From assembly GCA_023700805.1 (NCBI GenBank), contig JAMPYF010000008.1:1-64000 (forward strand): a stretch of 64,000 nt of DNA. Reading direction: 5' to 3'. This document shows positions 2,241-62,095 of this stretch, piece by piece. The position numbers were made by a program, and so were the translations under genes. The stretch's first letter is position 1. Each line of letters starts with the position of its first letter. The notes below the pieces were generated by a model that was not told the origin of the DNA, searched no databases, and saw only the letters and a list, made by a program, of their open reading frames with translations. This DNA comes from Sulfuritalea sp. (GTDB lineage Bacteria > Pseudomonadota > Gammaproteobacteria > Burkholderiales > Rhodocyclaceae).

Positions 2241-5200
2241 ATGAACGCGCCACTGCGCAGCATCACCCTCGAGGACAAATACGCCCTCAGCCACGGCCGG
2301 GTTTTTCTGACCGGCACTCAAGCTCTGGTTCGACTGCTGCTGCTGCAGCGCCAACGCGACGCGCTGGCCGGACTCAACACCGCCGGCTATGTGTCCGGCT
2401 ATCGCGGCTCGCCGCTGGGCGGGCTCGATCAGGCGCTATGGAAGGCCAAGCCGCATCTGGCACAAAGCCAGGTCGTGTTCCAGCCCGGCGTCAATGAAGA
2501 CCTTGCCGCCACGGCGCTGTGGGGCACGCAACAGGTCAATCTGTCGCCCGGTGCCAAACATGACGGCGTCTTCGGCATGTGGTACGGCAAGGGTCCCGGG
2601 GTGGATCGCTGCGGCGACGTCTTCAAGCATGCCAATTCCGCCGGCACCTGGAAGCACGGCGGCGTGCTGGCGATCGCCGGCGACGATCACGCGGCGCGCT
2701 CTTCGACGGTGGCGCACCAGTCGGAACACGCCTTCAAGGCGGCGATGATGCCGGTGCTGGTCCCCGCCGGGGTGCAGGACTATCTCGACCTCGGCCTGCA
2801 CGGCTGGGCCATGAGCCGCTATTCGGGTTGCTGGGTCGGCTTCAAGGCGGTCGCCGATACCGTCGAGTCGTCGGCCTCGGTGGATGTTTCGCCGGACCGG
2901 GTGCAGATCGTGCTGCCCACCGACTACGCCCTGCCGGCAGGCGGGCTCAACATCCGCTGGCCGGACGACCGCCTGCTGCAGGAAGCCCGCCTGCTCGACC
3001 ACAAGCTGTATGCGGCGCTGGCCTATTGCCGCGCCAACCGGCTGAACCAGATCGTGATCGACGCTCCAAACCCGCGCCTGGGCATCATCACCACCGGCAA
3101 GTCCTATCTCGACGTACGCCAGGCCTTCGACGACCTCGGCATCGACGATGCGCTCGCCGCCGAGATCGGCATCCGCCTCTACAAGGTCGGCATGGTCTGG
3201 CCGCTCGAATCGGACGGCGTGCGCCGCTTCGCCGAAGGCCTCGAAGAAATCCTGGTGGTCGAGGAAAAGCGACAGCTGATCGAATACCAGTTGAAGGAAG
3301 AACTCTACAACTGGCGCGAGGACGTGCGCCCGCGCGTGATCGGCAAGTTCGACGAACAGGGCGAATGGGCGCTGCCCAACGGCCGCTGGCTGCTGCCCGC
3401 TTCCGGCGAACTGTCGCCGGCGCAGATCGCGCGCGTCATCGCCGACCGCATCGGCCGCCATTTCACCTCGACCCGCATCCGCGATCGCCTGGCCATCATC
3501 GAAGCCAAGGAACGCTCCGCCGCACCGGTGATCCCGATCGCACGCACCCCCTACTTCTGCCCGGGCTGCCCGCACAACACCTCGACCTGCGTGCCCGAGG
3601 GTTCGCGCGCCCTGGCCGGCATCGGCTGCCATTTCATGGTGCTGTGGATGAACCGCGCCACCAGCACCTTCTCCCACATGGGCGGCGAAGGCGCGGCCTG
3701 GATGGGGCAGGCGCCCTTCACCGAACAGCGCCATGTCTTCGTCAATCTCGGCGACGGCACCTACTTTCATTCCGGCTCGCTGGCGATACGCGCCGCGGTG
3801 GCCTCGGGCGTCAATGCCACTTACAAGATTCTCTACAACGACGCCGTGGCGATGACCGGCGGCCAGCCCGTGGACGGCAGCCTGACGGTGCCGCAGATCG
3901 CCCACCAGCTGCATGCCGAAGGCGTGCATCACGTCGTCGTGGTCACCGACGGTGCCCCGCGCGCCTATGGCCACCCCGACCTGCCGCACGGCGTACCGAT
4001 CCGCCATCGCGACGAACTCGATGCGATCCAGCGCGAGATGCGCGAATGCCCCGGCGTCTCGGCCATCATCTACGACCAGACCTGCGCCGCCGAAAAGCGC
4101 CGCCGCCGCAAGCGCGGCAAGATGATCGATCCGCCGCGCCGCCTGTTCATCAACGAGGCCGTCTGCGAAGGCTGCGGCGATTGCGGCGTGCAGTCCAACT
4201 GCCTCGCCGTAGTGCCGGTGGAAACCGAATTCGGCCGCAAGCGCGCGATCGACCAGTCGGCTTGCAACAAGGATTACTCCTGCGAGAAGGGCTTCTGCCC
4301 GAGCTTTGTTTCGGTGCTCGGCGGCAGCGTCAGGAAAGGCCGCGGCCTGGCCGGCAGCAGCGCGCCGGGCGACGCATTCGGCGTGCCGCCAGCGCCAACC
4401 CTCGGCCCGACGGCTACGCCCTACGGCATCCTGATCACCGGCGTCGGCGGCACCGGCGTGGTCACCATCGGCGCCCTGATCGGCATGGCCGCGCACATCG
4501 ACGGCAAGGGCGTCACCGTGCTCGACATGACGGGCCTCGCCCAAAAGGGCGGCGCGGTGTTCTCCCACGTGCGCATCTGCGACGACCCGGATGACATACA
4601 CGCGGTGCGCGTGGCCACCGGCGAAGCCGATGCGGTGATCGGCGGCGACGTCATCGTCAGCGCCTCGCCCGACGCGCTGACCCGCATGCAGGCCGGCCGC
4701 ACGCGCGTGGTGGTGAATTGCGCGGAAACTCCCACGGCCGACTTCACGCGCAACCCGGACTGGCAGTTCCCGCTGGCGCGCATGCAGGCCGTGGTCGGCG
4801 ACACGGTCGGCGCCGGCGCCGCGCATTTCATCGACGCCTCGGACCTCGCCCTGCGCCTGCTCGGCGACTCGATCGCCAGCAACCTGTTCCTGCTCGGCTA
4901 CGCCTGGCAGCTGGGCATGGTGCCGGTGTCCTGGGAGGCCATCGACCGTGCCATCGAACTCAACGGCACGGCCGTGGCGATGAGCCGCGCGGCCTTCCTC
5001 TGGGGCCGCCGTGCGGCGCACGATCCGGCGGCGGTGGCGGCCTATGCCCGGCCCAGAATCGCCGAACCGCCAGCGCCAACTCTTGACGAAGCGATCGCCC
5101 GGCGTGTCGGCATTCTCACCGAGTACCAGGATGCCGCCTACGCGGCGCGTTATCGGCTGCAGGTGGAGCAGATCCGCGCCGCAGAGTCGGCGATCAACTC

Positions 5201-5708
5201 GTCGCAGTTGACCGAGGCCGTCGCCCACAACCTGTTCAAGCTGATGGCGATCAAGGACGAATACGAGGTGGCGCGGCTGTATGCCGAAGGCAATTTCGTG
5301 GAGCAGATCGCCGCGCGCTTCGAAGGCGACTACACGCTGCGCTTCCACCTCGCGCCGCCGCTGCTGGCGCGGCCCGATCCGAAAACCGGAAAGGTGAAGA
5401 AGATGGCTTTCGGTCCCTGGATGCTGACCGCCTTCAGATGGCTGGCGAAGGCGCGCCGCTATCGCGGATCGCGCTGGGATGTTTTCGGCCGCAGCGAGGA
5501 GCGGCGGCTGGAGCGCGCCCTGCTGGCCGACTACGAAGCCGACCTGGCCGCGCTGCCGGCGAAGCTCGAACGCAACACGCTGGGCGACGCCATTGCACTG
5601 GCCAGGCTGCCGGAAAGGATTCGCGGCTTCGGCCACGTCAAGCGGCGCAGCATCGACGAAGCCGCGCCGGAACGCGAGGCCTTGCGCGCCAGACTGGGGC
5701 TGGGCTGA
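2241..5708 (+). CDS. Indolepyruvate:ferredoxin oxidoreductase, fused alpha/beta subunits
   Basis: A 1155-residue thiamine-diphosphate 2-oxoacid:ferredoxin oxidoreductase that decarboxylates aryl pyruvates from aromatic amino acids to aryl-acetyl-CoA. The IorA-like part includes CPGCPHNTS near residue 440 and a TPP-binding region NLGDGTYFHSGSLAIR. A ferredoxin-type cluster segment follows with CEGCGDCGVQSNC near 640. From about residue 730 the IorB/gamma-like part begins with GVGGTGVVTIGALIG. Fused forms of this length are common in proteobacteria. RBS AGGAG precedes ATG 2241. Two copies of the window's dispersed repeat lie inside it, both encoding PPAPTL in linker-like stretches (near residues 715-720 and 942-947). 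Confidence 0.93.
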   Translation: MNAPLRSITLEDKYALSHGRVFLTGTQALVRLLLLQRQRDALAGLNTAGYVSGYRGSPLGGLDQALWKAKPHLAQSQVVFQPGVNEDLAATALWGTQQVNLSPGAKHDGVFGMWYGKGPGVDRCGDVFKHANSAGTWKHGGVLAIAGDDHAARSSTVAHQSEHAFKAAMMPVLVPAGVQDYLDLGLHGWAMSRYSGCWVGFKAVADTVESSASVDVSPDRVQIVLPTDYALPAGGLNIRWPDDRLLQEARLLDHKLYAALAYCRANRLNQIVIDAPNPRLGIITTGKSYLDVRQAFDDLGIDDALAAEIGIRLYKVGMVWPLESDGVRRFAEGLEEILVVEEKRQLIEYQLKEELYNWREDVRPRVIGKFDEQGEWALPNGRWLLPASGELSPAQIARVIADRIGRHFTSTRIRDRLAIIEAKERSAAPVIPIARTPYFCPGCPHNTSTCVPEGSRALAGIGCHFMVLWMNRATSTFSHMGGEGAAWMGQAPFTEQRHVFVNLGDGTYFHSGSLAIRAAVASGVNATYKILYNDAVAMTGGQPVDGSLTVPQIAHQLHAEGVHHVVVVTDGAPRAYGHPDLPHGVPIRHRDELDAIQREMRECPGVSAIIYDQTCAAEKRRRRKRGKMIDPPRRLFINEAVCEGCGDCGVQSNCLAVVPVETEFGRKRAIDQSACNKDYSCEKGFCPSFVSVLGGSVRKGRGLAGSSAPGDAFGVPPAPTLGPTATPYGILITGVGGTGVVTIGALIGMAAHIDGKGVTVLDMTGLAQKGGAVFSHVRICDDPDDIHAVRVATGEADAVIGGDVIVSASPDALTRMQAGRTRVVVNCAETPTADFTRNPDWQFPLARMQAVVGDTVGAGAAHFIDASDLALRLLGDSIASNLFLLGYAWQLGMVPVSWEAIDRAIELNGTAVAMSRAAFLWGRRAAHDPAAVAAYARPRIAEPPAPTLDEAIARRVGILTEYQDAAYAARYRLQVEQIRAAESAINSSQLTEAVAHNLFKLMAIKDEYEVARLYAEGNFVEQIAARFEGDYTLRFHLAPPLLARPDPKTGKVKKMAFGPWMLTAFRWLAKARRYRGSRWDVFGRSEERRLERALLADYEADLAALPAKLERNTLGDAIALARLPERIRGFGHVKRRSIDEAAPEREALRARLGLG
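4380..4404 (+). repeat. Dispersed 25-nt repeat, copy 1 (variant)
   Basis: Divergent copy with core AGCGCCAACC instead of AGCGCCAACT. It lies in the indolepyruvate oxidoreductase gene and encodes PPAPTLG in the linker between the iron-sulfur and IorB-like parts. Confidence 0.6.
5061..5085 (+). repeat. Dispersed 25-nt repeat, copy 2
   Basis: GCCGAAC followed by CGCCAGCGCCAACTCTTG. Within the indolepyruvate oxidoreductase coding region, read as PPAPTLDE. Confidence 0.8.
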
Positions 5709-5735
5709 AACAGCGCCGACCGGCGGCGCTTGCGA

Positions 5736-6923: not shown

Positions 6924-7844
6924 TCAGCGCCAAGCCAGCCAGAAGGGCAGGGTCAGCATGCCGAGCACGGTGCTGACCGAGATCAGCCAGGCCACACGCT
7001 GGCCATCGCCGCCCATGCGCTGAGCCAGGATATAGGCGGAACTGGCCGTCGGCAAAGCCGCGAATACCAGCGCCACGCCGGCATAAACGTCCGCCAGTCC
7101 GAACCAGCGTATCAATCCAAGAGCGGCCAGCGGCATTGCGATCAGCTTCACTGCAAGCAGATAGCCTGCAGCCGCCGCGGCGCCAGCGCCAACTTTCGCA
7201 CCGGTGCTGCGCAGCCCTGCGCCGACCGCCAGCAGCCCCAGCGCGATCGCGGCTTCGGCGAGCCGGCCGAGGAATTGCAGCAGAAGCTCCGGCGGCTGGA
7301 AGCCGGCCACGTTCGCCGCGGCGCCGGCGACCGTGGCGAGAATCAGCGGATTCTTCGCCAGCTCGCGCCAGACGCTGGCCTCGCCGTGACGCGCCAGCAT
7401 CCACACTGCGGCCATGTTGGCCGGCGGCACCATGACCCCGACCACGATCGCCATGGCGGCGATGCCCGGCAGGCCATAGAGCTTGCCCGCCACCGCGAGA
7501 CCGATATAGGAATTGAAGCGGAAGGCGCATTGGTATTGCGAGGCGAAGGACATCGGCGTCAGGCGAAACATGCGCGCGCCGTAGCCCAGCACCATGCCGG
7601 TCGCCATGGCCCCCATCACCACGGCCAGCAGCGGACCCGCCGCGACCCAGTCGATGCGCGCCTTCACCAGTCCGTTGAACAACAGGGCCGGGAACAGCAC
7701 GTAATAGACCAGTTTTTCCAGACCGGTCCAGAAATGGTCGCCCAGATGCAGCACGCGGCGCAGGCCTGCGCCGAGCAGGATCAGGGCGAAATCGGGAAGC
7801 AGGGCGAGGGCCGGCGCCAGCGCCGGAGTCGGCATCAGGGACAC
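6924..7844 (-). CDS. AEC-family permease (auxin-efflux-carrier-like)
   Basis: An integral membrane transporter of about 306 residues with roughly ten hydrophobic segments in the two five-helix repeats of the AEC/bile-acid transporter superfamily. Members export or exchange malonate, malate or other organic acids. It is the last gene of the leftward liv/acyl-CoA operon, 4 bp after the CoA transferase, so it probably moves a related acid. The longest frame starts at GTG 7844; an ATG at 7833-7835 is an equally plausible start. A dispersed repeat copy is embedded at 7174-7198, encoding AKVGAGAA. Confidence 0.85.
   Translation of the reverse strand: MSLMPTPALAPALALLPDFALILLGAGLRRVLHLGDHFWTGLEKLVYYVLFPALLFNGLVKARIDWVAAGPLLAVVMGAMATGMVLGYGARMFRLTPMSFASQYQCAFRFNSYIGLAVAGKLYGLPGIAAMAIVVGVMVPPANMAAVWMLARHGEASVWRELAKNPLILATVAGAAANVAGFQPPELLLQFLGRLAEAAIALGLLAVGAGLRSTGAKVGAGAAAAAGYLLAVKLIAMPLAALGLIRWFGLADVYAGVALVFAALPTASSAYILAQRMGGDGQRVAWLISVSTVLGMLTLPFWLAWR
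7174..7198 (+). repeat. Dispersed 25-nt repeat, copy 3
   Basis: GCCGCGG followed by CGCCAGCGCCAACTTTCG. Lies antisense within the AEC permease gene, whose sense strand reads AKVGAGAA here. Confidence 0.75.
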
Positions 7845-7848
7845 GCCG

Positions 7849-9060
7849 CTAAATTACCCCGCTGTCGCGCAGCCGCGCAATGTCGGATTCCACGTAGCCG
7901 GCCGCCTTCAGCACGGCCTCGCTGTCTGCGCCGGCGGCCGGCGCCGGCGTGGCGGCGGCCCAGGGCCAGGCCGAAAGTTTGCAAGGCGGCGCGTACTGTC
8001 TGCCGCCGCCGACCTCGACCAGCATTTCGCGCGCAGCGATCTGCGGGTGCGCCATGGCTTCGTCCAGGCGCAGCACGGGCGTGACGCAGCAGTCCGCGGC
8101 GGCAAATACGGGCTCCCAGTGGGCCAGGGGCCGGGCGGCGAGCACGGCGGCCAGTTCGGCCTTCACCGCACGCCCCTTGCTGCCCGTGGCCAGCCCGAAG
8201 GGTGCCAGGTCGGCGCGCCCGATCGCCGCGCACAGCGCCTGCCAGAACTTGGGTTCGAGCGCGCCCACCGCCAGGTAACGCTCGTCGGCGGTGCGATACA
8301 CGCCGTAGCAGGGCACGCCGCCGGTCAAGAGGTCGGCACCGCGCGGCGCCGGCCGGCCCTGGACCAGCGTGGTGACCAGCGGAAAGATGGTGTGCGCCAG
8401 CACGGCGTCGGTCATGGCCACATCGACGTGGCTGCCCCGCCCCGTCGCCTTGGCGCCGATCACCGCAGCAAGAACACCAAGCAAGGGAGTAAGCGCTCCC
8501 CCCAGCAGGTCGCCGACCTGCAGATTGGGAATCGCCGGCGGGCCGCTGTGCTCGCCGTCGTGGCTGCCGATCTGGTCGAGCAGCCCTGCGGTGGCCAGAT
8601 AATTGATGTCGTGGCCGGCCCGATCCGCCCAGGGGCCGGTCTGTCCGTAGCCGGTGATCGCGCAATAAACGATGCGCGGATTGATCGCGCGCACCGCCTC
8701 ATAGCCGATGCCCAGCTTGTCCACCACGCCGGGACGGAAACTTTCGAAAATCACGTCGGCATCCTGCGCCAGGCGCAGGAAGACCTCGACGCCCGCCGCC
8801 TGCTTGAGGTCCAGGCGCAGGCTTTTCTTGTTGCGATTGACCAGGCGGAAGAACAGGCTGTCGCCCGCAGCCCCGCTGCCGCCGGCCGCGCGCTCGCCCG
8901 GGCCCATGGTGCGGGCATAGTCGCCGGCGCCGGTATCCTCGATCTTGATCACCTCGGCGCCGAGATCGGCCAGATGCATGGTCGCCACCGGCCCCGGCAG
9001 CAGGCGCGTCAGATCGAGCACCCGCAGTCCGGCCAGCGGGCCGGACTTTGTTTCAGTCAT
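7849..9060 (-). CDS. Class III acyl-CoA transferase (CaiB/BaiF family)
   Basis: A 403-residue family III CoA transferase, which moves CoA between carboxylic acids through an aspartyl thioester. The N-terminal signature GLRVLDLTRLLPGPVATMHL is followed by LGAEVIKIED and the nucleotide-facing stretch NRNKKSLRLDL. The start overlaps the stop of the upstream ligase gene by 8 nt, showing translational coupling. The acceptor is unknown; within this operon it likely activates or recycles the imported acid. Racemase members of the same family (alpha-methylacyl-CoA racemase) are an alternative. Confidence 0.9.
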   Translation of the reverse strand: MTETKSGPLAGLRVLDLTRLLPGPVATMHLADLGAEVIKIEDTGAGDYARTMGPGERAAGGSGAAGDSLFFRLVNRNKKSLRLDLKQAAGVEVFLRLAQDADVIFESFRPGVVDKLGIGYEAVRAINPRIVYCAITGYGQTGPWADRAGHDINYLATAGLLDQIGSHDGEHSGPPAIPNLQVGDLLGGALTPLLGVLAAVIGAKATGRGSHVDVAMTDAVLAHTIFPLVTTLVQGRPAPRGADLLTGGVPCYGVYRTADERYLAVGALEPKFWQALCAAIGRADLAPFGLATGSKGRAVKAELAAVLAARPLAHWEPVFAAADCCVTPVLRLDEAMAHPQIAAREMLVEVGGGRQYAPPCKLSAWPWAAATPAPAAGADSEAVLKAAGYVESDIARLRDSGVI

Positions 9061-10285
9061 ACTTCCGTTCGTCCGCGATCACCTTGCCGTCGTTGGGCAA
9101 GCTGCCGGCGGCCACGAGTTCCACGACGCCACGCAGTTTGGTCAGCTCGCGCACGCTTTCGCCGATTGCAGTTGCCAAGCCGTCGCTGGCAGTCGCTTCG
9201 CAGCGCAGCGTCATGACGTCGCTGCTGTCGGGGTTGGTCACGACCAGGCGGGCCCGGGCGATTTCCGGATGACGCTTGACCACCGCCGCCACCTGCTCGG
9301 GATGAACGAACATGCCCTTGATCTTGGTGGTCTGGTCGGCGCGGCCCATCCAGCCCTTGATGCGCAGATTGGTGCGGCCGCAGGGAGAAATCCCCGGCAG
9401 AAATGCCGACAGGTCGCCGGTGCCGAAACGGATCAGCGGATAGTCGGCGTTGAAGGTGGTCACCACGACCTCGCCGACTTCGCCGAGCGCCACGGGATCG
9501 CCCGTACCCGGGCGCACGATTTCGACGATCACTCCCTCGTCGATCAACAGGCCCTGGCGCGCCTCGGTCTCATACGCGATGACACCGAGTTCGGCCGTCG
9601 CATAAGCCTGGTAGCCGGCGATGCCGCGCGCCGACAAGGCATCGCGTACCGGCGGCAGGAAGGCCTCGCCGGAAACCAGGGCCTTGCTCAGCGACGGCAG
9701 CTTGATGCCCATTTCGTCCGCCTTTTCCAGCAGGATGCGCAGGAAGGACGGCGTGCCGACATAGCCGTTCGGCTGCAGATCGGCCATCGCCGCCACCTGC
9801 TGCTCGGTCTGCCCGACGCCAGCCGGGAACACCGTGCAGCCCAGCGCCTGGGCGCCGGCCTCGAGGATCCAGGCGCCCGGCGTCATGTGATAGGAAAAAC
9901 TGTTGTGCACCAGGTCGCCGGCACGGAAGCCCGCCGCGTAAAGCGCGCGCGCCGTGCGCCAGTAATCGGCGTCGCGGCCTTCGGGTTCGTAAATCGGACC
10001 GGGCGAAGAGAAAACACGGCCGAGCTTGCCCCAGGGCGACGCCGCCAGGCCGCCGAATGGCAAGCGCGCCTTCTGCAGTTCGATCAGGTCGAGCTTGCGC
10101 ACCACCGGCAGCGCCGCGAGGGCCACGGTCGAGGTGATCGCCGCGGCATCGACGTTCTTCAGGGATTCCGCGAAGTAGGCGGTATTGGTCTTGGCATGGG
10201 CGATCTGCTGCGGCAGCCGTGTCGCCAGCGCCAACTCTCGTTCGTCGGCGGTGCGGGTTTCGAGGGCGTCAAAATACTTCGACAT
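9053..10285 (-). CDS. Phenylacetate-CoA-ligase-like adenylate-forming enzyme
   Basis: A 410-residue protein of the PaaK-like AMP-binding superfamily. Fold landmarks are YATAELGVIAYE (around 225-240), the DYPLIRFGTGDLS hinge region (about 300) and KIKGMFVHPEQV with a C-terminal lysine-containing subdomain (KVIADERKYD). The usual Ser/Thr/Gly-rich ATP loop (SSGTTG) is replaced by FSSPGPIYEPEG. It lies between livF and the CoA transferase in the acid-import operon, so it probably makes the CoA thioester of the imported compound. ATG at 10283-10285 was chosen because family homology starts there. A dispersed repeat copy codes for residues ERELALAT near the N-terminus. Confidence 0.85.
   Translation of the reverse strand: MSKYFDALETRTADERELALATRLPQQIAHAKTNTAYFAESLKNVDAAAITSTVALAALPVVRKLDLIELQKARLPFGGLAASPWGKLGRVFSSPGPIYEPEGRDADYWRTARALYAAGFRAGDLVHNSFSYHMTPGAWILEAGAQALGCTVFPAGVGQTEQQVAAMADLQPNGYVGTPSFLRILLEKADEMGIKLPSLSKALVSGEAFLPPVRDALSARGIAGYQAYATAELGVIAYETEARQGLLIDEGVIVEIVRPGTGDPVALGEVGEVVVTTFNADYPLIRFGTGDLSAFLPGISPCGRTNLRIKGWMGRADQTTKIKGMFVHPEQVAAVVKRHPEIARARLVVTNPDSSDVMTLRCEATASDGLATAIGESVRELTKLRGVVELVAAGSLPNDGKVIADERKYD
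10216..10240 (+). repeat. Dispersed 25-nt repeat, copy 4
   Basis: GCCGTGT followed by CGCCAGCGCCAACTCTCG. Antisense within the ligase gene; the sense strand uses a different frame from the other copies (ELALATR). Confidence 0.8.
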
Positions 10286-18414: not shown

Positions 18415-18439
18415 GCCGTGGCGCCAGCGCCAACTCTTG
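18415..18439 (+). repeat. Dispersed 25-nt repeat, copy 5
   Basis: GCCGTGG followed by CGCCAGCGCCAACTCTTG, directly abutting the stop codon of the dehydrogenase gene (18440-18442) in the convergent gap. Together with two extra upstream bases it is identical over 27 nt to copy 12 at 62071. Confidence 0.85.
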
Positions 18440-31842: not shown

Positions 31843-31867
31843 GCCGTGCCGCCAGCGCCAACTTTCT
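31843..31867 (+). repeat. Dispersed 25-nt repeat, copy 6
   Basis: GCCGTGC followed by CGCCAGCGCCAACTTTCT. It overlaps the icmF stop codon (31866-31868) by two bases in the convergent gap. Confidence 0.8.
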
Positions 31868-34800
31868 ACATCGAGCGCCGGTACTGCCCTCCGACGAGAT
31901 ACAGGGCATTGGAAATCTGCCCCAGCGAGCAATGGCGCACGGCGTCCATCATCACGGCGAAGACGTTGCCGTTGTCGATCACGGCTTGCTTCAGCCGGGC
32001 CAGACAGGCCTCGGCTTCGCCGGCGTTGCGCTGCTGGAAATCCGCCAGCCGCTTGAGTTGCGACTGCTTCTCCTCTTCGGTCGAGCGCGCCAGCTCGATT
32101 TCGCTGGCGACGCCCGAGCCGTGCGGATTGAGGAAGGTATTGACGCCGATGATCGGGTAGGAGCCGTCGTGCTTCTTGTGCTCGTAGTGCATCGACTCTT
32201 CCTGGATTTTGCCGCGCTGGTAGCCGGTCTCCATGGCGCCGAGGACGCCGCCGCGGCTGGCGATGGCTTCGAATTCCTTCAACACGGCTTCCTCGACCAG
32301 GTCGGTCAGTTCCTCGATGATGAAGGCTCCCTGGTTCGGGTTCTCGTTCTTCGCCACGCCCCATTCGCGGTTGATGATGAGCTGGATCGCCATGGCGCGG
32401 CGCACCGACTCCTCGGTCGGCGTGGTGATCGCCTCGTCGTAGGCATTGGTGTGCAGGCTGTTGCAGTTGTCGTAGATCGCGATCAGCGCCTGCAGCGTGG
32501 TGCGGATGTCGTTGAAGTCCATTTCCTGCGCGTGCAGCGAGCGCCCGGATGTCTGGATGTGGTACTTGAGCTTCTGGCTGCGCTCGTTGGCGCCGTAGCG
32601 GTTCTTCATCGCCACGGCCCAGATGCGGCGTGCGACGCGGCCGATCACCGAGTATTCCGGATCCATGCCATTGCTGAAGAAGAAAGAGAGGTTGCCGGCG
32701 AAGTCGTCGATGTGCATGCCGCGCGCGAGGTAGGTCTCGACGTAGGTGAAGCCGTTGGCCAGGGTGAAGGCGAGCTGGCTGATCGGGTTGGCGCCGGCTT
32801 CGGCGATGTGGTAGCCGGAGATCGAGACCGAGTAGAAATTGCGGATCTGGTGATGGACGAAATACTCCTGGATGTCGCCCATCATTTTCAGCGCGAACTC
32901 GGTCGAGAATATGCAGGTGTTCTGGCCCTGGTCTTCCTTGAGGATGTCGGCCTGCACCGTGCCGCGCACCGATGACAGCGTCCAGGCGCGAATCTTGTCG
33001 GCCTCGTCCTCGGTCGCGTCGCGGCCGTTCTGCTCGCGGAATTTCGCTATCTGCTGGTCGATCGCGGCATTGAGGAACATCGCGAGGATCATCGGCGCCG
33101 GGCCGTTGATGGTCATCGACACCGAGGTCGCCGGGTCGCAGAGGTCGAAGCCCGAGTAGAGCACCTTGAGGTCGTCCAGCGTGGCGATCGAGACGCCCGA
33201 GTTGCCGATCTTGCCGTAGATGTCGGGGCGCGGATCGGGGTCGCAGCCGTAGAGCGTGACCGAATCGAAGGCCGTGGACAGGCGCTTGGCCGGCATGCCT
33301 TCGGAAACTTTGAGGAAGCGCTTGTTGGTGCGGAAGGCGTCGCCCTCGCCGGCGAACATGCGCGTCGGGTCCTCGTTCTCGCGCTTGAAGGCAAAGACGC
33401 CGGCAGTGTAGGGAAACGACCCGGGCACGTTCTCGCGCATCAGGAACTTGAGCAGTTCGCCCTCGTCGTCGAAGCGCGGCAGCGCCACCTTGCGGATCCT
33501 GGTGCCCGACATGGTCTCGTAGATCAGGCCGGTGCGGATTTCCTTGTCGCGGATCTTCACCACGTACTCGTCGCCGGCATAGGCCTTCTTCATGTCCGGC
33601 CACATCGCCAGGAGCTTCCTGGCATGCGGCGTGAGCTGGCCGTCCTTCCAGGCGATCAGTTCGTCGAAATCTGTCGCGTTCTTCTTGCAGGCCTCGAAGA
33701 TGGCCTTGGCGGTTTTCAGCGACTGCCGCTCGCGCGCCAGCAGCGCCTGCTCGGCAATGTGCTTGTGATAGCCGCGCAGGCTGTCGGCGATTTCGGCCAG
33801 GTAGCGCACGCGGTCGGCCGGCACGATGGCGCGCCCGGCCGATGAGTGCTTGACGTTAACCGCCGGCAGGATGCCCTGCTTGAACTTCAGTCCGCGCTCG
33901 GCCAGGCGCGGCACCAGCGCCTGGTACAGCGCGGTGACGCCGTCGTCGTTGAAGCGCGCCGCCATGGTGCCGAACACCGGCATGTCGTCCGGCTTTTCGC
34001 CGAATCGTTCACGGTTGCGCTGGTACTGCTTGCGCACGTCGCGCAGCGCATCGGAGGCCCCGCGTCGGTCGAACTTGTTGATCGCGACGAAGTCGGCGAA
34101 GTCGAGCATGTCGATCTTTTCCAGCTGCGAGGCGGCGCCGAATTCCGGAGTCATGACGTAGAGCGAGACATCGACCAGCGGCACGATCGCGGCATCGCCC
34201 TGGCCTATGCCCGACGTCTCGACCACGACGAAGTCGAAGCCGGCCACCTTGCAGGCGGCGATGACGTCGGGCAGCGCCTTGGAGATTTCGCTGCCGGTGT
34301 CGCGCGTGGCCAGCGAGCGCATGTAGATGTTCGGATGCTGGATCGCATTCATGCGGATGCGGTCGCCCAAGAGCGCGCCGCCGGTGCGCTTGCGCGAGGG
34401 ATCGATCGAAATCACGGCGATGCGCTGAGAGTCGTCCTGGTCGAGGCGGAAGCGGCGGATCAGCTCGTCGGTCAGCGAGGACTTGCCGGCGCCGCCGGTG
34501 CCGGTGATGCCGAGAGTTGGCGCTGACGACACGGCGGCCTTCTCGTGCAGCGCCTTTTTCGCCTTTTCGGGCCAGGCGCCGTTCTCCAGCGCCGTGATGA
34601 TCTGCGCCAGGTTGCGCAGGCGCTCGGCGCGGTCGGCGACCTCGAGCGCTTTCATTTCCTGTGGCGCACGCTTGCTGATGTCGATATCGCAGCGCATCAC
34701 CATGTCGTTGATCATGCCCTGCAGGCCCATTTTCTGGCCGTCCTCGACCGAGTAGAGGTGGGCCACGCCGTAGTCGTGCAATTCCTTCATCTCGGCCGGC

Positions 34801-35239: not shown

Positions 35240-36300
35240 GCAGAACAGCCACTCCCTCACGGAACTCCGCCGGCAGCCCATCGACCGTCGCCATGGGCTT
35301 CGTCAGCGGCATTCTGTCGGGGGTGGCGCGGGCCGGGCTGGCGCCCGAGACCCTGCTCGACCGTGCAGGAATTGCCAGGAACCTGCTGCATGAGCGCAGC
35401 GCCCGCATCCCCGTCGCGCGCTATGCCGCGCTCTACCGCCTGATCAACGAAAGCCTCGACGACGAGGGTTTCGCGCTGTTTTCACGGCCCCTGCGCCGCG
35501 GCAGCTTCGAGTTCCTCTGCCGCGCCACGCTGTCCGCAGCAAACCTGGAGGAGGCGCTGCAACGCATCGCGCGCTTCCTGCATGTGGTGCAGGACGAGCT
35601 CGACGTGGAACTGGAACTAAGCGGCCGCGCCGCCGTCATCGTCATCAGCGAGGAACAGGCGCTGCCGGTCGGCGCTGCGGGGCGCGTGTTCGCCTACGAA
35701 TGGCTGCTGCGCATGATCCACGGCCTCGCCGCCTGGCTGGTGGCGCACCCGCTGCCGCTCGACGAAGTCTGCTTCCCTTACCCGCCGCCGCTCCATGCGG
35801 CCGACTACGAACTGGTCTTCGCGCCGCGCTACACCTTCGACGCGCCGCGCCTCGAAGCGCGCTTTCCGGCGGAATGGCTGGCCCTGCCGGTGCGCCGCGA
35901 CGAGGCGGCGCTGCGCAGCTTTCTCGCCGACGCGCCGGCTTCCATCACCACGCTGTATCGCCGCGACCGCGCGCTGGCCTTGCGCGTGCGCGAACACCTG
36001 CGCGCGGCCCTGCCCGAACAGCCGACGCTGCCGGCCATCGCGCGCCGCCTGTTCCTTTCGCCGCGCACGCTGCATCGCCGACTGGAAGACGAAGGCACGA
36101 GTTTTCGCGCCATCAAGGACGGCCTGCGCCGCGAGCTCGCCACCGACTGGCTGACCAAGACCGCACGCCCCCTGAGCCGCATCGGCGCCGACCTCGGCTT
36201 CGCCGACGCCGCCGCTTTCTATCGCGCCTTCAGCGCCTGGACCGGCAGCGGCCCGCGCGAATACCGCAGGCGCTTCCGCCACACCCCGCCATCGGTATAA
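35236..36300 (+). CDS. AraC-family transcription regulator
   Basis: A 354-residue regulator. The N-terminal arabinose-binding-like domain (about 20-220) has the OruR/ArgR-like look of this subfamily. The C-terminal double helix-turn-helix (about 250-345) has PTLPAIARRLFLSPRTLHRRLEDEGTSFRAIKDGLRRELATDWL and IGADLGFADAAAFYRAFSAWTGSGPREYRR. Divergent from icmF with about 100 bp between, it may regulate icmF in response to an acyl compound; this is inference. Its TAA stop is the first three bases of dispersed repeat copy 8. Confidence 0.92.
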   Translation: MRRTATPSRNSAGSPSTVAMGFVSGILSGVARAGLAPETLLDRAGIARNLLHERSARIPVARYAALYRLINESLDDEGFALFSRPLRRGSFEFLCRATLSAANLEEALQRIARFLHVVQDELDVELELSGRAAVIVISEEQALPVGAAGRVFAYEWLLRMIHGLAAWLVAHPLPLDEVCFPYPPPLHAADYELVFAPRYTFDAPRLEARFPAEWLALPVRRDEAALRSFLADAPASITTLYRRDRALALRVREHLRAALPEQPTLPAIARRLFLSPRTLHRRLEDEGTSFRAIKDGLRRELATDWLTKTARPLSRIGADLGFADAAAFYRAFSAWTGSGPREYRRRFRHTPPSV

Positions 36301-36322
36301 GAGTTGGCGCTTGCGATACGGC
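36298..36322 (-). repeat. Dispersed 25-nt repeat, copy 8
   Basis: On the minus strand GCCGTAT followed by CGCAAGCGCCAACTCTTA. Its end supplies the stop codon of the AraC-family gene; it lies in a convergent gap. Confidence 0.75.
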
Positions 36323-45784: not shown

Positions 45785-47371
45785 TCAGTGGCCCTGGTGC
45801 CGGTCTGCCGGCGCGCTCGCCCCGGTCTGCGCTGCCGCGTCCATTTTCGTGATCACCCACTCGCCGGGCTTGCGCTCGACGAACTCGATGGCAATCGCGC
45901 TGCCGGGTTTGATCTTCTCGGTCAGCGCCGGATTCGCCAGCATGAAGTCCATGGTCATGCCCGGCCACTTGAGGCTGGCCACCGGACCGTGGGTCACGGT
46001 CACGCTGCCGGCCCTGGCATCGATGGCATCGAGCCTGCCGCTCGCCTGGTGGCTGACCGCGCCGCCCTTGGCCGCCGCTGGCGGCGCGCCGGCCGCCGCG
46101 AAGCCGCCGAGCGCGGCCTTGAGGTTGCTTTCGGCATCGATCAGGAAGTTCGCCGCGACCACCACCGGCTCGCCGTCCCTGATCCCCTCGCGGACTTCCA
46201 CGTAATCGTCGCTGCGCGCGCCGAGCCTGACCGCGCGCGGCTCGAAACGCCCCGCGCCCTTTTCGACCAGCACGATCTGCCGCGTGCCGCTGTCGATCAC
46301 GGCCGAGACCGGCACCGTCAGCACGCGGTCGGCGGCGCCCACCGCCAGTTCGACGCTGGCGTACATCGCCGGCTTGAGCAGCCCGCCCGGATTGGCCAGC
46401 TCGATGCGCACCGGGATCGTGCGCGTCTCGGCCGTAAGCCGGGGGTAGATGTAGGCGATCGTGCCGGCAAAGCTTTTCTCCGGATAGGCGCTGATCGCGA
46501 GACTGACCTTCTGCCCGGGTTTGACCAGCGCGATGTCGCGCTCGAAGACATCGGCCAGCACCCAGACCGAGGACAGGTCGGCGATCTGGTAGAGCATCTC
46601 GCCGGGCATGAAACGCATGCCGGCCACGGCCTTCTTCTCCAGCACCACGCCGCCCGCCGGCGAGCGGAAACTCAGCGTGCGACTGGCCTCGCCGCCCGCC
46701 GCCAGCGCCTTGATCTGCTCCTCGGAAATGTCCCAGTTGCGCAGACGCACCAGGCTTGCCTCGGCCAGCTGGCGCATGCCGGTCTGCATTTCGGCGCCGG
46801 CATCCTTCAGCGCCGCGACGCCCTTGGCCGCCACCACGTACTCGCGCTGCGCCGAAACCAGCTCCGGGCTGTACACCTCGAACAGCGGCTGGCCCTTGGC
46901 CACCGGCTGGCCCGTGGCATTGACGTGCAGGCGCTCGACCCAGCCCTCGAATTTCGGCGCCACGTTGTGCAGGCGACGCTCGTCGACCTCGACCCGGCCG
47001 GAGGCGCGCACCCGGCGCGCGAGTTCGCGCAGCGCCGCGGGTTCGGTCTTGACGCCGAGCTTCTGTACCTTCTCGGTGCTGATCTTCAGCTCGCCCGCCG
47101 CCACACCGTCGTCCTCGCCTTCATAGACCGCGATGTAGTCCATGCCCATCGAGTCCTTCTTCGGCGTCGGCGAGGTGTCCGCCAGACCCATCGGGTTGCG
47201 GTAGTAGAGCAGCTTGCGCGGCTTCTGCGCCCCGGCAGCGCCGGCAGCCGCAGCGGGCGTGGCGGCCATGCTCGCCGTGTCGCCAGCGCCAACTCTTGCC
47301 TTGCCCAGCCAGTAGCCTCCGCCGGCGGCCAGCAGTGCCACCGACAGCGCGGCCAGGTATCCGTATTTCAT
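45785..47371 (-). CDS. cusB: Cus-type periplasmic adaptor CusB with fused CusF domain
   Basis: A 528-residue membrane fusion protein linking CusA and CusC. N-terminal helix MKYGYLAALSVALLAAGGGYWLG is followed by a heavy-metal-binding YYRNPMGLADTSPTPKKDSMGMDYI segment, the hairpin/lipoyl/beta-barrel core (FEGWVERLHVNATGQPV, AGMRFMPGEMLYQIADLSSVWVLADVFE) and a C-terminal CusF-like domain (about 430-520) retaining VTHGPVASLKWPGMTMDF, the His, Trp and MxM copper ligands. A dispersed repeat copy encodes RVGAGDTA right after the membrane helix. The ATG overlaps the cusC stop by 4 nt. Confidence 0.93.
   Translation of the reverse strand: MKYGYLAALSVALLAAGGGYWLGKARVGAGDTASMAATPAAAAGAAGAQKPRKLLYYRNPMGLADTSPTPKKDSMGMDYIAVYEGEDDGVAAGELKISTEKVQKLGVKTEPAALRELARRVRASGRVEVDERRLHNVAPKFEGWVERLHVNATGQPVAKGQPLFEVYSPELVSAQREYVVAAKGVAALKDAGAEMQTGMRQLAEASLVRLRNWDISEEQIKALAAGGEASRTLSFRSPAGGVVLEKKAVAGMRFMPGEMLYQIADLSSVWVLADVFERDIALVKPGQKVSLAISAYPEKSFAGTIAYIYPRLTAETRTIPVRIELANPGGLLKPAMYASVELAVGAADRVLTVPVSAVIDSGTRQIVLVEKGAGRFEPRAVRLGARSDDYVEVREGIRDGEPVVVAANFLIDAESNLKAALGGFAAAGAPPAAAKGGAVSHQASGRLDAIDARAGSVTVTHGPVASLKWPGMTMDFMLANPALTEKIKPGSAIAIEFVERKPGEWVITKMDAAAQTGASAPADRHQGH
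47274..47298 (+). repeat. Dispersed 25-nt repeat, copy 9
   Basis: GCCGTGT followed by CGCCAGCGCCAACTCTTG. Antisense in cusB; the sense strand encodes ARVGAGDTA just after the N-terminal helix. Confidence 0.85.
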
Positions 47372-52429: not shown

Positions 52430-52897
52430 TTAGTGCTTGTGGTCGGTATGCCCGTCGTTTGCCGCGACCGACGGTGCGGCCAGCGGCGTGAAGCGCGCCT
52501 GCTCGGCGGGCTTGCCCGAGAGCGTGATCGACACCACCACCTTCATGTCCGGCGTCGACGCGTACTTGCCGACGCCCTTGAGGCGGTTGTCGCCGTCGGG
52601 CACCAGCTTGACGCTGGCCTTCTGCTTGCCGGCGAGGATGGTCGCCGTACCGCCAGCGCCAACTGTTGGAATCTTCGCATTGGCGTGGTCGGTGACATAC
52701 ACCACGACCGGGTTGTCCCTGGCCTCCTTGCTGTCCTTGGCCACCACCAGCTCGAAGTGATAGGCGCCGGCCATGCGCTGCTGGCCGCCGTTGGGCGTCT
52801 TCTGGGTATCCAGGTATTCGTCGCTATGGGCGAACGAGAACGAACTCGCCAGCATCAGGGCGCTGGCCGCGGCAAGAGAAATCAGGGATTGCTTCAT
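52430..52897 (-). CDS. Exported beta-rich hypothetical protein of copper operons
   Basis: A 155-residue protein with signal peptide MKQSLISLAAASALMLASSF (cleaved near SFAHSDEY). The mature part looks like an FixH/YtkA-type immunoglobulin-like domain (YHFELVVAKDSKEARDNPVVVYVTDH, PDMKVVVSITLSGKPAEQARFTPL) ending in a His-rich tail NDGHTDHKH. It may bind metal or assist the adjacent RND system. A dispersed repeat copy encodes PTVGAGGTAT. Start chosen for the signal peptide. Confidence 0.78.
   Translation of the reverse strand: MKQSLISLAAASALMLASSFSFAHSDEYLDTQKTPNGGQQRMAGAYHFELVVAKDSKEARDNPVVVYVTDHANAKIPTVGAGGTATILAGKQKASVKLVPDGDNRLKGVGKYASTPDMKVVVSITLSGKPAEQARFTPLAAPSVAANDGHTDHKH
52644..52668 (+). 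repeat. Dispersed 25-nt repeat, copy 10
   Basis: GCCGTAC followed by CGCCAGCGCCAACTGTTG. Antisense within the exported protein gene; the sense strand encodes PTVGAGGTA. Confidence 0.75.
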
Positions 52898-56282: not shown

Positions 56283-56374
56283 AGGACACGCCCACGGCCT
56301 TGAACGGCCAATGAGGCACGGCGCCAACCGATCGGGCCGGTGGGGTGCTCTGCGGAGCGGAAGTAAAGGAGGAG
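56240..56374. repeat. 16-nt inverted repeat pair flanking the element end
   Basis: CTCCTCCTTTACTTCC (56240-56255) is exactly repeated in inverted orientation as GGAAGTAAAGGAGGAG (56359-56374). The pair straddles the right terminal repeat of the MITE-like element, suggesting a second nested element. Confidence 0.7.
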
Positions 56375-56471
56375 GCGACGGCCGCAGGCCGACGACGGGG
56401 GACATGGAGCGGAGCGGAGCGCCCCGGCGGCCCGATCGCTACCCACCGCAAATGAGAGTGTCGGTTTCACT

Positions 56472-57626
56472 TCAGCGGACCTGGGACAGCAGGCCGGCGC
56501 CTTCGATCACGACCCGGTCGCCCTCGTGCAGGCCGTCGGCAATTGCCACGTTGGCGGCATCGAGCGCCTGATGGCGCACCCGGCGTACGACGAAGCGCTC
56601 GGCCTCCGTGTGCACCCACACCGCCGTCTCGCCAGCGCCAACTTTCGTCAGCGCCGCGCGCGGCACCGAGGCGCCCTTGAGCTCATGCGCGGTGCGCACG
56701 ATCACCTTGACCGGCTGGCCGACCGCCACCATGGAGTTGGCCGAGACGATGCGGAACAGCAAGGGCAGCGCCTGCTCGCGCAACTGCCGGCCGGCGCCGA
56801 CGAACTTGAGCTCCAGCGCGGTCTGCTCGGCCAGGGCGCTGGCCGAGACCAGGGTCGCGCCGATGCCGGCATCGTAGGACAGCGCCTCGACCGCCAGGCG
56901 CTCGGGGTCGACGATCTCGAACAGCACCTCCCTGGCGTCGACGATCTGGCCCGCCACCAGGTGGTGCGAGGCGCTGATCACGCCGGTCGCCGGGGCCAGC
57001 AGCGGCTCGGCGGAATCGATGCTGGCGGCGACGAAGGCGCGGCGCTTTTGCAGCGCCGCGTGCTCGATGCGAGCCATTTCGATTTCCTTTTGCGGCACCG
57101 CGCCTTCCAGTTGCTCGAAGCGCTTGACGCGTCCGTCGGCAATCGCCAGCTGGGCCTCCAGTTCGGACAAAAGCGCCTTCTGGTTGCCGCGCTCGATGGC
57201 GCTGGCAACCGGGCGCAGCCAGGCCAGCACTTCGCCTTTGGCGACCTTGCGTCCCGGCATCGGCATGCCCTTGGGGCCCGGCATGACGCTGCCGGCGAAG
57301 GTCGCCTGGACGCGACCGCTGGTGTTCGGATCGGGGATGACCCTGCCGTTGAGCTCGACCGTCGCCGCGAGATCGCCGATGTGCGCGGGCTGGGTGCGCA
57401 GCCCGAGCTGGCGCTGCACCGACTTGGGCACAAACAGGCTGCCGTCGGCCAGGCGCTGCAGCGCGGCAGGCGCGTTCGCTGCTCCCGGCGCTGCGCCGGC
57501 CGGCGCGACAGGCGCCGCCTTCTTGGCGTCCTGGCTGTGATCCTCGTCGCCGTGGGCCAGCGCGCCGCCGGCGACGAACGCCAGGCTGGTCGTGGCGGCC
57601 AGGAGCCGCACCAAAGTATTTCGCAT
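56472..57626 (-). CDS. RND periplasmic adaptor (membrane fusion protein), second metal system
   Basis: A 384-residue HlyD/CusB-type adaptor with signal peptide MRNTLVRLLAATTSLAFVAG. A His/Asp-rich AHGDEDHSQDAKK follows processing, as in several heavy-metal adaptors. The core has LFVPKSVQRQLGLRTQPAHIGDLAATVELNGRVIPDPNTSG, a helical hairpin (LSELEAQLAIADGRVKRFEQLEG) and a lipoyl/barrel region. It belongs with the downstream RND permease and upstream TolC-like gene. A dispersed repeat copy sits in the late beta-barrel region (ALTKVGAGETAVWVH), a stretch that is also conserved as protein in relatives. Confidence 0.9.
   Translation of the reverse strand: MRNTLVRLLAATTSLAFVAGGALAHGDEDHSQDAKKAAPVAPAGAAPGAANAPAALQRLADGSLFVPKSVQRQLGLRTQPAHIGDLAATVELNGRVIPDPNTSGRVQATFAGSVMPGPKGMPMPGRKVAKGEVLAWLRPVASAIERGNQKALLSELEAQLAIADGRVKRFEQLEGAVPQKEIEMARIEHAALQKRRAFVAASIDSAEPLLAPATGVISASHHLVAGQIVDAREVLFEIVDPERLAVEALSYDAGIGATLVSASALAEQTALELKFVGAGRQLREQALPLLFRIVSANSMVAVGQPVKVIVRTAHELKGASVPRAALTKVGAGETAVWVHTEAERFVVRRVRHQALDAANVAIADGLHEGDRVVIEGAGLLSQVR
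56623..56647 (+). repeat. Dispersed 25-nt repeat, copy 11
   Basis: GCCGTCT followed by CGCCAGCGCCAACTTTCG. Antisense within the adaptor gene; the sense strand encodes TKVGAGETA. Confidence 0.75.
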
Positions 57627-59389: not shown

Positions 59390-59392
59390 GCT

Positions 59393-59827: not shown

Positions 59828-59841
59828 GGCAGGGATTCCTT

Positions 59842-59868: not shown

Positions 59869-59898
59869 ACCCCTTCCCCACCGCAAGCTGACGCCGGG

Positions 59899-59914
59899 AT
59901 TACATTTCTGTAAT
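59899..59914. promoter_or_regulatory. CusR/CopR-type box
   Basis: ATTACA, TTTC, TGTAAT: a perfect palindrome in the 148-bp space between the divergent metal operon and cusR. The form ATTACA-N4-TGTAAT resembles the operators bound by CusR/CopR-type metal regulators, so it likely controls both directions. Confidence 0.75.
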
Positions 59915-59975
59915 CTTCGGCGGGCGCCGTTTCGCCAAGCGCACAATCCTGGCATGGACATGAGCGGGGCATGAA

Positions 59976-60656
59976 ATGAAAATCCTGGTGGTCGAAGACG
60001 AGCCGAAAACCGGCGACTACCTCAAACAGGGGCTGGTTGAAGCCGGCTTCGTCGTCGACCTGGCGCGCGACGGTGTCGACGGCCTGCATCTGGGCGAAAC
60101 CGGCGACTACGACCTGGCGATACTCGACGTGATGCTGCCGAGGCTCGACGGCTGGCAGGTGCTGGCCGGCATGCGCCACGCCGGGCGCGAGCTGCCGGTG
60201 CTGTTCCTCACCGCGCGCGACCAGGTCGAGGACCGCGTCAAGGGCCTCGAACTGGGCGCCGACGACTACCTGGTGAAACCCTTCGCCTTCGCCGAACTGC
60301 TGGCGCGGGTGCGCACCCTGCTGCGCCGCGGCAGCCGCGCCAAGGAAGCGGAACAGCTGCGCGTCGCCGATCTCGAACTCGACCTGCTGCGCCGCCGCGT
60401 CACGCGCGCCGGCCAGCGCATCGACCTGACGGCCAAGGAATTCGCCCTGCTCGAACTGCTGCTGCGGCGCCGCGGCGAAGTGCTGCCGCGCTCGCTGATC
60501 GCCTCGCAGATCTGGGACATGAATTTCGACAGCGACACCAACGTCATCGAAGTGGCGGTGCGCCGGCTGCGCGCCAAGATGGATGACGGCTTCGAGCCGA
60601 AGCTCATACGCACCGTGCGCGGAATGGGCTATGTGCTGGAGGACGACGCCGCGTGA
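59976..60656 (+). CDS. cusR: CusR/CopR-type heavy-metal response regulator
   Basis: A 226-residue OmpR-family regulator. Receiver: [19 protein letters not shown], phospho-acceptor Asp51 in [17 protein letters not shown], and [20 protein letters not shown]. The winged helix has [32 protein letters not shown] and the recognition region [17 protein letters not shown], all typical of the heavy-metal group (CusR, CopR, CzcR). It overlaps the kinase gene by 4 nt and is divergent from the metal efflux operon, which it most likely activates. Confidence 0.94.
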
Positions 60657-62050
60657 AGGGCCGCAGCCGGTCCATCACCGTCAGGCTGACGCTGCTGTTC
60701 ACCACGGTGTCCACGGCGGTGCTGCTGGCGCTGGGCCTGCTGATCGGCAATGCGGTCGAACAGCACTTCATCGAACAGGACATGGAACTGATGGACGGCA
60801 AGCTGCACCTGGCCGGCCACCTGCTGGAAAAAGTGCAAAGCCGCGCCGATCTGGACGCCTTGCCGACGCAGCTCGACGATGCATTGGTCGGCCACCACGA
60901 GCTCGCCGTGGTGGTGCGCAATGCCGCCGGAGAGAACCTGTTCGCCACCCCGGGCGCCGGTTTTCCGCCCGCGCTGCTGGCGCGCACCGCCGTCGCCAGT
61001 CCGCCGCAGCCGCAGGTCTGGCATGAGACGGGGCCATCGGGCACGCAACCCCGGCGCGGCATCTCCGCGCTGCTGCCGACCGGCATTCCCGGCGAGCCGC
61101 CGGTGCTGGTCGCAGTGGCGGTCGATATCACGCACCACGAGCACTTCATGGACTCCTTCCGCCGCACGCTGTGGCTGTTCGTCGCCACTGCCGCGGCGCT
61201 GGCCGGCCTGCTCGGCTGGGCCGCGGTCAGGCGCGGCCTGGCGCCGCTGCAGGCGATCCGCCAGGGCGCGGCCGGCGTCACCGCGAGCCGGCTCGACTAT
61301 CGCCTGGCGGTCGATGCGGTGCCGGACGAACTCGCCGACCTCGCGCAAACCCTGAACGACATGCTGGCCCGCCTCGAAGATTCGTTCACGCGGCTCAAGG
61401 ATTTCTCCTCCGACCTGGCCCACGAACTGCGCACGCCGATCAGCAACCTGATGACCGAGACCCAGGTCGCGCTGACCCGCGCCCGCAGCCCCGAGGAGTA
61501 CCGCGAGGTGCTGGCCTCCAACGCCGAGGAATACGAACGCCTGGCGCGCATGGTGGGCGACATGCTGTTCCTGGCGCAGGCCGAGCACGGCCTGGTGGTG
61601 CCCAGTCGCGAACCGGTGGACCTGGCCAACGAGGTACGCGAACTGTTCGATTTCTTCGATGCGCTGGCCGAGGAAAAGTCCTTGCAACTTTCCTTGGCCG
61701 GCAGCGGCCAGGTAAGCGGCGACAAGCTCATGCTGCGCCGCGCGCTGGCCAACCTGATCGCCAATGCCATACGCCACACGCCCGCCGGCGGCAGCATCCG
61801 CGTCGGCATCGAGGCGGGCGACAGCGGTACCACGCTCGCCATCGAAAACAGCGGCGAGCCGATTCCGCCGGAACATCTGTCGCGCATCTTCGACCGCTTC
61901 TACCGCGCCGACCCCTCGCGCCACCGCAGCCACGAAGGCGCCGGCCTCGGCCTCGCCATCACGCGTTCGATCGTCCAGGCCCACGGCGGCGAGATTTCAG
62001 TGCGCTCCACCGCCGACGGCGTCTGCTTCGAGATCCGGCTGTCCCGCTGA
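60653..62050 (+). CDS. cusS: CusS/CopS-type heavy-metal sensor histidine kinase
   Basis: A 465-residue kinase of the heavy-metal sensor group, with GTG start inside the cusR stop (GTGA). N-terminal helix [20 protein letters not shown], a periplasmic sensor of about 150 residues, second helix [24 protein letters not shown], HisKA ([24 protein letters not shown], His257) and ATPase domain ([14 protein letters not shown], then [21 protein letters not shown] and [12 protein letters not shown]). The [15 protein letters not shown] and [14 protein letters not shown] stretches are characteristic of CusS/CopS. Confidence 0.94.
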
Positions 62051-62070
62051 GGCTGCCGGCAGCGAGCGGC

Positions 62071-62095
62071 GCCGTGGCGCCAGCGCCAACTCTTG
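62071..62095 (+). repeat. Dispersed 25-nt repeat, copy 12
   Basis: GCCGTGG followed by CGCCAGCGCCAACTCTTG, 6 nt beyond the stop of the EF-G-like gene in its direction, in the convergent gap with the cusS-like gene. Confidence 0.85.

Follow-up and report, generated by a model that had tools for sequence, protein, structure and literature searches.

The stretch analysed here (the window) comprises positions 1 to 64,000 of contig JAMPYF010000008.1 from a Sulfuritalea sp. genome (GCA_023700805.1; family Rhodocyclaceae), and it carries twelve copies of a non-palindromic 25-nt motif spread over its genes and the gaps between them. A first-pass annotation had listed these copies and suggested a DNA uptake sequence, a chromosome-organising polar motif or a general protein-binding site. 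Searching with the 25-nt consensus at up to 3 mismatches returned exactly the twelve copies it had listed, at the same coordinates and on the same strands, and none of 100 shuffled sequences contained any. The claim that all twelve fit the consensus held for four exact copies; the other eight have 1–3 mismatches. The window has 11 occurrences of the 10-mer AGCGCCAACT, as reported, compared with a shuffle mean of 0.22 and a maximum of 2. Genes were called with a crude codon-usage caller made for this analysis and no annotation was used. The copies lie as follows:

4380..4404, + strand: copy 1, 2 mismatches, inside the gene at 2241–5708 (pyruvate/indolepyruvate:ferredoxin oxidoreductase type by Pfam domains)
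5061..5085, + strand: copy 2, 2 mismatches, inside the same gene at 2241–5708
7174..7198, + strand: copy 3, 1 mismatch, inside the Mem_trans permease gene at 6924–7844 (-)
10216..10240, + strand: copy 4, exact, inside the AMP-binding gene at 9053–10285 (-)
18415..18439, + strand: copy 5, exact, in the gap between convergent genes 17684–18310 (+) and 18440–19291 (-)
31843..31867, + strand: copy 6, 1 mismatch, in the gap between convergent genes 28323–31685 (+) and 31866–35135 (-)
34511..34535, - strand: copy 7, 1 mismatch, inside the methylmalonyl-CoA mutase fusion gene at 31866–35135 (-)
36298..36322, - strand: copy 8, 3 mismatches, at the end of the gene at 35293–36300 (+), before the convergent gene at 36381–38369 (-)
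47274..47298, + strand: copy 9, exact, inside the gene at 45785–47371 (-) for a CusB/HlyD adaptor with a CusF domain
52644..52668, + strand: copy 10, 2 mismatches, inside the gene at 52430–52897 (-)
56623..56647, + strand: copy 11, 1 mismatch, inside the HlyD-type adaptor gene at 56472–57611 (-)
62071..62095, + strand: copy 12, exact, in the gap between convergent genes 60653–62050 (+) and 62102 onward (-)

The host genes are unrelated, as had been said. The annotation had named a near-chance genome-wide count, or absence beyond the window, as grounds for dismissing the motif, and neither was found. The source genome (G000; 63 contigs, 4.16 Mb, 89% complete) holds the 14-nt core CGCCAGCGCCAACT, at up to one mismatch, at 301 forward and 325 reverse places (626), compared with 4 forward and 3 reverse places (7) for the reversed core used as a control. 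Such genome-wide over-representation is characteristic of DNA uptake sequences. Motif density is about 1 per 5–7 kb. From the window and 399 kb of three other contigs of this genome we derived a conserved unit of ~26 nt with sharp edges, TCGCCGTRNCGCCAGCGCCAACTYTYG (82 copies at up to one mismatch); alignment columns outside about -9 to +17 were at or near background, and the flanking columns of these copies gave no sign of a longer repeat in which the unit is embedded. The 25-mer folds at only -2.0 kcal/mol, which agrees with its description as not a strong palindrome and is too weak for the hairpins that define repetitive extragenic palindromic (REP) elements.

Gap sites numbered 26/91 in G000 and 72/243 in a closed relative (G002, a single 3,802,648-base contig), with 4 more in each at gene edges. 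Gaps make up 12% of the DNA, and the motif share in them was 2.3–2.5 times that of non-coding DNA. Within genes the motif ran opposite to or along the host gene in 36 and 25 cases in G000 and in 91 and 76 in G002; because both orientations occur, a role at the RNA level was rejected. Two or three reading frames were favoured among these copies, translating as A-V-x-P-A-P-T-L and R-V-G-A-G-D-T-A. This small number of frames is what could be said for chance or a codon or amino-acid repeat as the origin of the motif, an account refuted by the empty shuffles, the count of 626 against a control of 7, the excess in gaps and the use of both orientations and several frames. We give it practically no credence.

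The motif exists in species-specific forms that are largely uniform within a genome, as is typical of uptake-sequence dialects. Among unique sites in the examined sequence, base +10 was A in 83/94 sites of G000 and G in 243/244 sites of G002, and the latter genome has 0 exact copies of CGCCAGCGCCAACT and 385 of CGCCAGCGCCGACT. Base +4 was also G in 8/10 sites of another genome, G023, and a third form, CGCCGGCGCCGACT, was found 2–191 times per genus genome and 0–5 times outside the genus. Copy 10 of the window is kept in nine relatives with A or G at +10 according to species, while three others (G008, G013 and G022) differ there at equal length; copy 11 is kept in nine relatives, each with its own dialect. 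At 27 equal-length orthologous sites taken from G000 to G002, identity was 83.1% in the flanks, 93.6% in the 18 motif columns other than the dialect one and 4% in the dialect column; the places were anchored by their flanks and the queries are motif copies, so some of the conservation excess comes from this choice, from which the dialect column is exempt. The change at +10 was A to G (AACT vs GACT) in 23/25 present sites, and in 35/38 when five AACT genomes were pooled against G002. In the opposite direction it was G to A in 23/27 present sites, and among AACT genomes the dialect base was unchanged in 28/28. A stricter orthologue filter left 4 pairs between G000 and G002, 3 of them A to G.

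How copies come and go was examined in 70 strict comparisons between G000 and G002, in which both flanks were at least 78% identical (the filter kept 334 of 493 pairs). For 32 places with the motif in G000, G002 had the motif in 26, a degenerate version of equal length in 1, a copy split by a hairpin in 4 and a deletion (-61) in 1. The 38 places taken from G002 were occupied in G000 in 28 cases; 3 were degenerate and 5 lacked the motif at equal length, and 2 lacked it with length differences of 3 and 6. No motif-sized empty site, meaning a clean loss of 25–27 nt such as REP-like dispersal by insertion would leave, occurred in the 70 comparisons, and the one -26 case among the 493 looser pairs lay in a diverged region and was a patchwork of gaps. 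We therefore rejected mobile-element insertion as the source of the motif, consistent with the earlier statement that it is not a transposon, and as judged from these alignments its copies arise or decay in place. Several absent cases had many motif bases changed at once, which fits replacement by recombination or point mutation. Replacement by recombination has been argued for the DNA uptake sequences (DUS) of Neisseria (PMC2397512).

The 10:2 strand ratio in the window is real (binomial p 0.039), and one-strand runs recur locally, with 3 + and 15 - copies on contig C10 (79 kb) of the same genome and 12 + and 6 - in the window plus the next 40 kb. Other stretches are balanced: 21/19 on contig C4 (260 kb), 8/7 on C3 (60 kb) and 36/35 in the first 380 kb of G002. 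For the dominance on C10 we have no explanation to offer beyond chance. The advice to test strand skew against the replication axis was followed in the closed genome G002, where the GC skew turns between 1.67 and 1.83 Mb. Its full lists of exact sites gave 82+/100- in one half and 107+/96- in the other (Fisher p 0.15), with no chromosome-wide polarity, so replichore polarity was rejected, and the suggested polar motif is not supported. Polar motifs of the FtsK-orienting (KOPS) and architecture-imparting (AIMS) type are likewise non-palindromic and repeated genome-wide. They are about 8 nt long and strongly replichore-polarised, unlike this motif, with its near-even 36:35 over 380 kb and the insignificant difference between halves.

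Spacing was more even than random. Gaps of at most 500 nt between neighbouring sites numbered 4/157 in G000 and G002 together against 14.2 expected (p 0.0025 in G000, 0.11 in G002), and gaps of at most 2 kb 31/157 against 49.6. This evenness bears on a further explanation, in which selection keeps the motif at several hundred places as a non-polar site for a chromosome-organising or nucleoid-associated protein, with motif and protein specificity evolving together. Equal strand use overall, chromosome-wide spread over genes and gaps, and conservation at orthologous places agree with it as well. The lack of replichore polarity, with similar totals of exact sites in the two G002 halves (182 and 203), counts against it, and no protein of this kind known to us has a binding site that is asymmetric, as long as 25 nt, present hundreds of times and divided into species dialects. 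Dialects are instead documented for uptake sequences (PMC3630211). We consider such a protein site unlikely, though the motif may be a protein-binding site in the general sense of the first-pass annotation.

Copies are also concentrated in DNA held in common by related genomes, where "shared" means found in the examined part of one relative, with 3 and 4 sites near stretch ends excluded. Sites of G000 fell in DNA shared with G002 in 62/88 cases compared with 1082/2000 random positions (p 0.003); the reverse was weaker, at 75/239 compared with 511/2000 (p 0.06). Conservation and enrichment in core DNA are both seen in uptake sequences. The same two properties would suit a recombination hot-spot, a Chi-like signal or another DNA-processing mark. 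Chi is much shorter than this motif, and neither the absence of a leading-strand bias nor the single-base dialects fit such a mark, which we regard as very improbable.

We surveyed 61 genomes, 31 of the genus Sulfuritalea and 30 outside it. Thirty of the 31 genus genomes had 72–626 places matching the CGCCAGCGCCAACT core; the remaining one, G017, had only 32, within the 0–36 range of the 30 other genomes surveyed. With 20 bases specified, the exact form was found in at least 84 stretches, and 76 of the 80 listed loci were in Sulfuritalea and Rhodocyclales metagenome-assembled genomes. Background counts in six other genera had suggested an origin restricted to the genus, which was ruled out by a second survey of 199 genomes from 68 genera of the family with a dialect-tolerant 22-mer (controls 0–4 per genome). 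Six genus genomes had 363–599 places and 16 genomes of six other genera had 28–550, while the remaining 177 genomes, including a member of a carrier genus (G136, with 0), had 0–12. These counts across genera establish that the motif system is patchy within Rhodocyclaceae. Non-carriers sometimes hold a few clustered copies, such as five within 41 kb in G135 (C1:1461265-1502264), and these clusters are possibly DNA imported from carrier genera. Small clusters of the GACT form were also seen on contigs C104, C66 and C557 of G109, a genome otherwise without the motif.

No word comparable to the motif was found in 50–80 kb each of six motif-poor genomes from sister genera, the word peak in G035 being a hexamer tandem repeat, and in 44 kb of G017 without the motif the only peak was taken for a local repeat. 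G098 was considered as the carrier of a further dialect, with CGCCAGCGTCGACT in 6/7 matches, yet it had one copy in 20 kb.

A minority of copies are split by inserts. In type A copies an insert of 36 bases separates CGCCGTNNC from AGCGCC; it is mostly GGACTCTGTCTGCCGGGGATTCCGCTTCGCGGGCCGGCA or else a reverse-oriented relative. In type B copies 21–39 bases separate AGCGCC(G) from ACT. Insert lengths of both types are multiples of three; in G002, 7/7 type B inserts lay within predicted genes, and type A inserts lay in genes and gaps. Folding energies of type A inserts are -15.0 and -16.5 kcal/mol. The hairpin core, at up to 3 mismatches, occurred at 40, 40, 28 and 36 places in four genomes (controls 3–4), and among the best 30 of these 144 places, sorted by eye on printed sequences, 23 were clearly inside a motif, 2 were in a degenerate motif and 5 were not. 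The right half of split copies was mostly in the species dialect, with exceptions in G000 (L247 and L251) and an altered copy in G002 (L241). At several independent loci the homologous place elsewhere is a short motif, so the hairpin either inserted into a motif already there or was excised precisely. Copy 9 of the window is an example: the place homologous to it in G002 (L291) has a hairpin insert in the motif. At copy 11 the motif is longer by +21 nt in G008 and by +30 nt in G024. A further class of insert, with 22 or 64 nt between the motif halves and ending in TTCATC or TTTATC before AGCGCC, stands outside the two hairpin families:

L124, 17942, - strand: insert of the further class
L209, 552: insert of the further class
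L062, 3888, - strand: insert of the further class

A Y1 transposase (PF01797) is encoded in 26/31 genus genomes, and the copy in the source genome lies on the contig of the window itself:

L271:16091-16873, PF01797 at C51:80457-80786: gene for a Y1 transposase of the REP-associated tyrosine transposase (RAYT) type, ~16 kb from the end of the window; a degenerate hairpin-in-motif lies immediately downstream of the gene

Judging by the inserts, the motif seems to serve REP-like hairpins as a landing pad, and the Y1 transposase, we infer, would move them, possibly inserting while incoming DNA is single-stranded. Viral contigs yielded no transposase relatives. These hairpins raise the alternative that the motif is itself the empty target or collapsed remnant of a REP/RAYT palindromic element moved by the transposase. 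The fixed points at which hairpins sit in split motifs, the frequency of PF01797 in the genus and the gene beside a degenerate hairpin-in-motif favour it, and a Y1 transposase with REP-like hairpins, many of them in the motif, is a real likeness to REP/RAYT systems. The 25-mer, however, is non-palindromic, sits mainly in coding sequence and does not originate by insertion: short motifs appear and vanish without insertion-sized gaps, and hairpin loci are short motifs in other species. Split copies are also few, about 17 with a type A or B insert against 243 short copies in the examined third of G002, and the dialect switching of short copies is left unexplained. Moreover, G019 (99% complete) has no PF01797 match, yet it has 204 core places plus 55 of the third dialect, which makes it unlikely that the motif owes its existence to the transposase. 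We judge this alternative decidedly unlikely.

Uptake sequence was the best fit among the three original suggestions, because the dialects, in-place origin, shared-DNA enrichment, even spacing and equal strand use all agree with it. Marking of self-DNA for uptake is so far known in only two families, according to PMC12616744. The motif is probably a third, independently evolved self-DNA mark, in Rhodocyclaceae and analogous to the DUS of Neisseriaceae and the uptake signal sequences (USS) of Pasteurellaceae, though we hold this with considerable doubt; an independent uptake system is favoured because the motif behaves like Neisseriaceae DUS. A type IV pilus or competence receptor at the cell surface would bind motif-bearing fragments, and the bound DNA would enter through ComEC and recombine. 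Uptake bias would then enrich the motif in place, in tolerant spots of conserved genes and in gaps, and a one-base shift in receptor preference, followed by the sites, would create dialects. We infer the reading of the motif during uptake, its receptor and biased uptake as the driving force. The com/pil search found ComEC in 30/31 genus genomes. The annotation knew of no described element with this sequence, and we found none in the open-access literature, most subscription journals being outside our coverage; nor did that open-access literature yield an uptake sequence in Rhodocyclales, Sulfuritalea or Rhodocyclaceae, or one associated with a REP-associated transposase.

This motif resembles Neisseriaceae DUS, whose receptor is ComP, in being a short non-palindromic word that is iterated through the genome on either strand, within genes as well as between them, is conserved and more frequent in shared DNA, and varies between species by one-base dialects. 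For neisserial DUS, enrichment in the core genome, strong conservation, their spacing and their permissive locations are described in PMC2397512, and one-base dialects in PMC3630211. The latter also gives a 5'-CTG-3' core as required in all DUS dialects; CTG and CAG are both absent from the CGCCGGCGCCGACT form. This motif belongs to a different bacterial family, and no basic ComP was found among the pilins read in the genus. It is not a member of the Neisseriaceae DUS, having no CTG core and few inverted pairs, yet it seems to work in a similar way. USS are an analogue in being genome-wide asymmetric motifs with a strong core and weaker flanking positions. They consist of a 9-nt core with A/T-rich flanks and occur in gammaproteobacteria, whereas this motif is GC-rich and has no A/T-rich flanks.

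Several observations weigh against an uptake sequence. In comparisons from G002 to G000 (n = 38), motif conservation was only modestly above that of the flanks (89.5% vs 83.9%). Neisseriaceae DUS are 10–12 nt long against about 25 nt here, and motif density is roughly 4- to 6-fold below that of N. meningitidis and N. gonorrhoeae, which have ~1900 DUS per 2.2–2.3 Mb (PMC3630211). Inverted pairs, adjacent opposite-strand copies within 100 nt, were found in 0/30 and 1/74 cases, whereas that source describes them as common in DUS genomes; an abutting pair outside this count lies at L132 (12666/12686), one partner having a poor left half. Pilins of the ComP_DUS family (PF16732) are encoded in 55/61 genomes, motif-bearing or not, and those read in the genus are neutral or acidic (mature isoelectric point, pI, 5.2–6.4), while the pilins of two loci in motif-poor outgroups are basic (pI 8.3 and 9.3). 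Insertion of hairpins into the motif is not predicted by uptake. G017 is 99% complete and has ComEC and a ComP_DUS-family pilin, yet its motif counts are at background. The GACT form is also present in viral contigs, with at least 120 such stretches, and so extends beyond cellular DNA; the narrower AACT pattern had 0 matches there. Around 80 viral loci tested (L321–L400) the density beyond the fetching copy was 0.038 per kb, or about one per 26 kb, and one of the contigs (L335) has clear phage genes. Phages with GACT-form motifs may infect carrier species. The viral GACT form and the near-absence of the motif from the ComEC-bearing G017 stand against a strict self-mark.

Some further features were recorded. 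A minor-pilin cluster of the source genome (L274, C37:205001-225000) encodes a FimT/GspH-like pilin, a provisional name, of mature pI 8.6, which is a candidate receptor, and also a ComP_DUS-family pilin of pI 5.2. The gap between genes at 56144–56437 of the window holds a separate dispersed repeat that recurs at many other places in genus genomes; among the matches listed, a 74-nt stretch was ~90–95% identical and a ~220-nt stretch ~72–82%, and no Rfam family matched it at the gathering threshold. ARAGORN called a tRNA-Ser at 50998–51094 (-), within the long predicted gene at 49057–51348 and without Rfam support, which is probably false.

If the motif is an uptake sequence, an unrelated, environmental third lineage with dialects would allow comparison of how uptake-sequence systems arise and could test drive against selection as the force that maintains them. 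It would also imply natural transformation in uncultured Rhodocyclaceae, and the dialect switch at orthologous sites would be a natural experiment in the co-evolution of receptor and motif. Tentatively, the hairpins may be joined to this in a fuller account: a third uptake-sequence system with at least three dialects, and REP-like hairpins, moved by the Y1 transposase, that insert site-specifically and in multiples of three into the uptake word. If that is true, a mobile element would be exploiting the 'sex' signal of its host as a landing pad.

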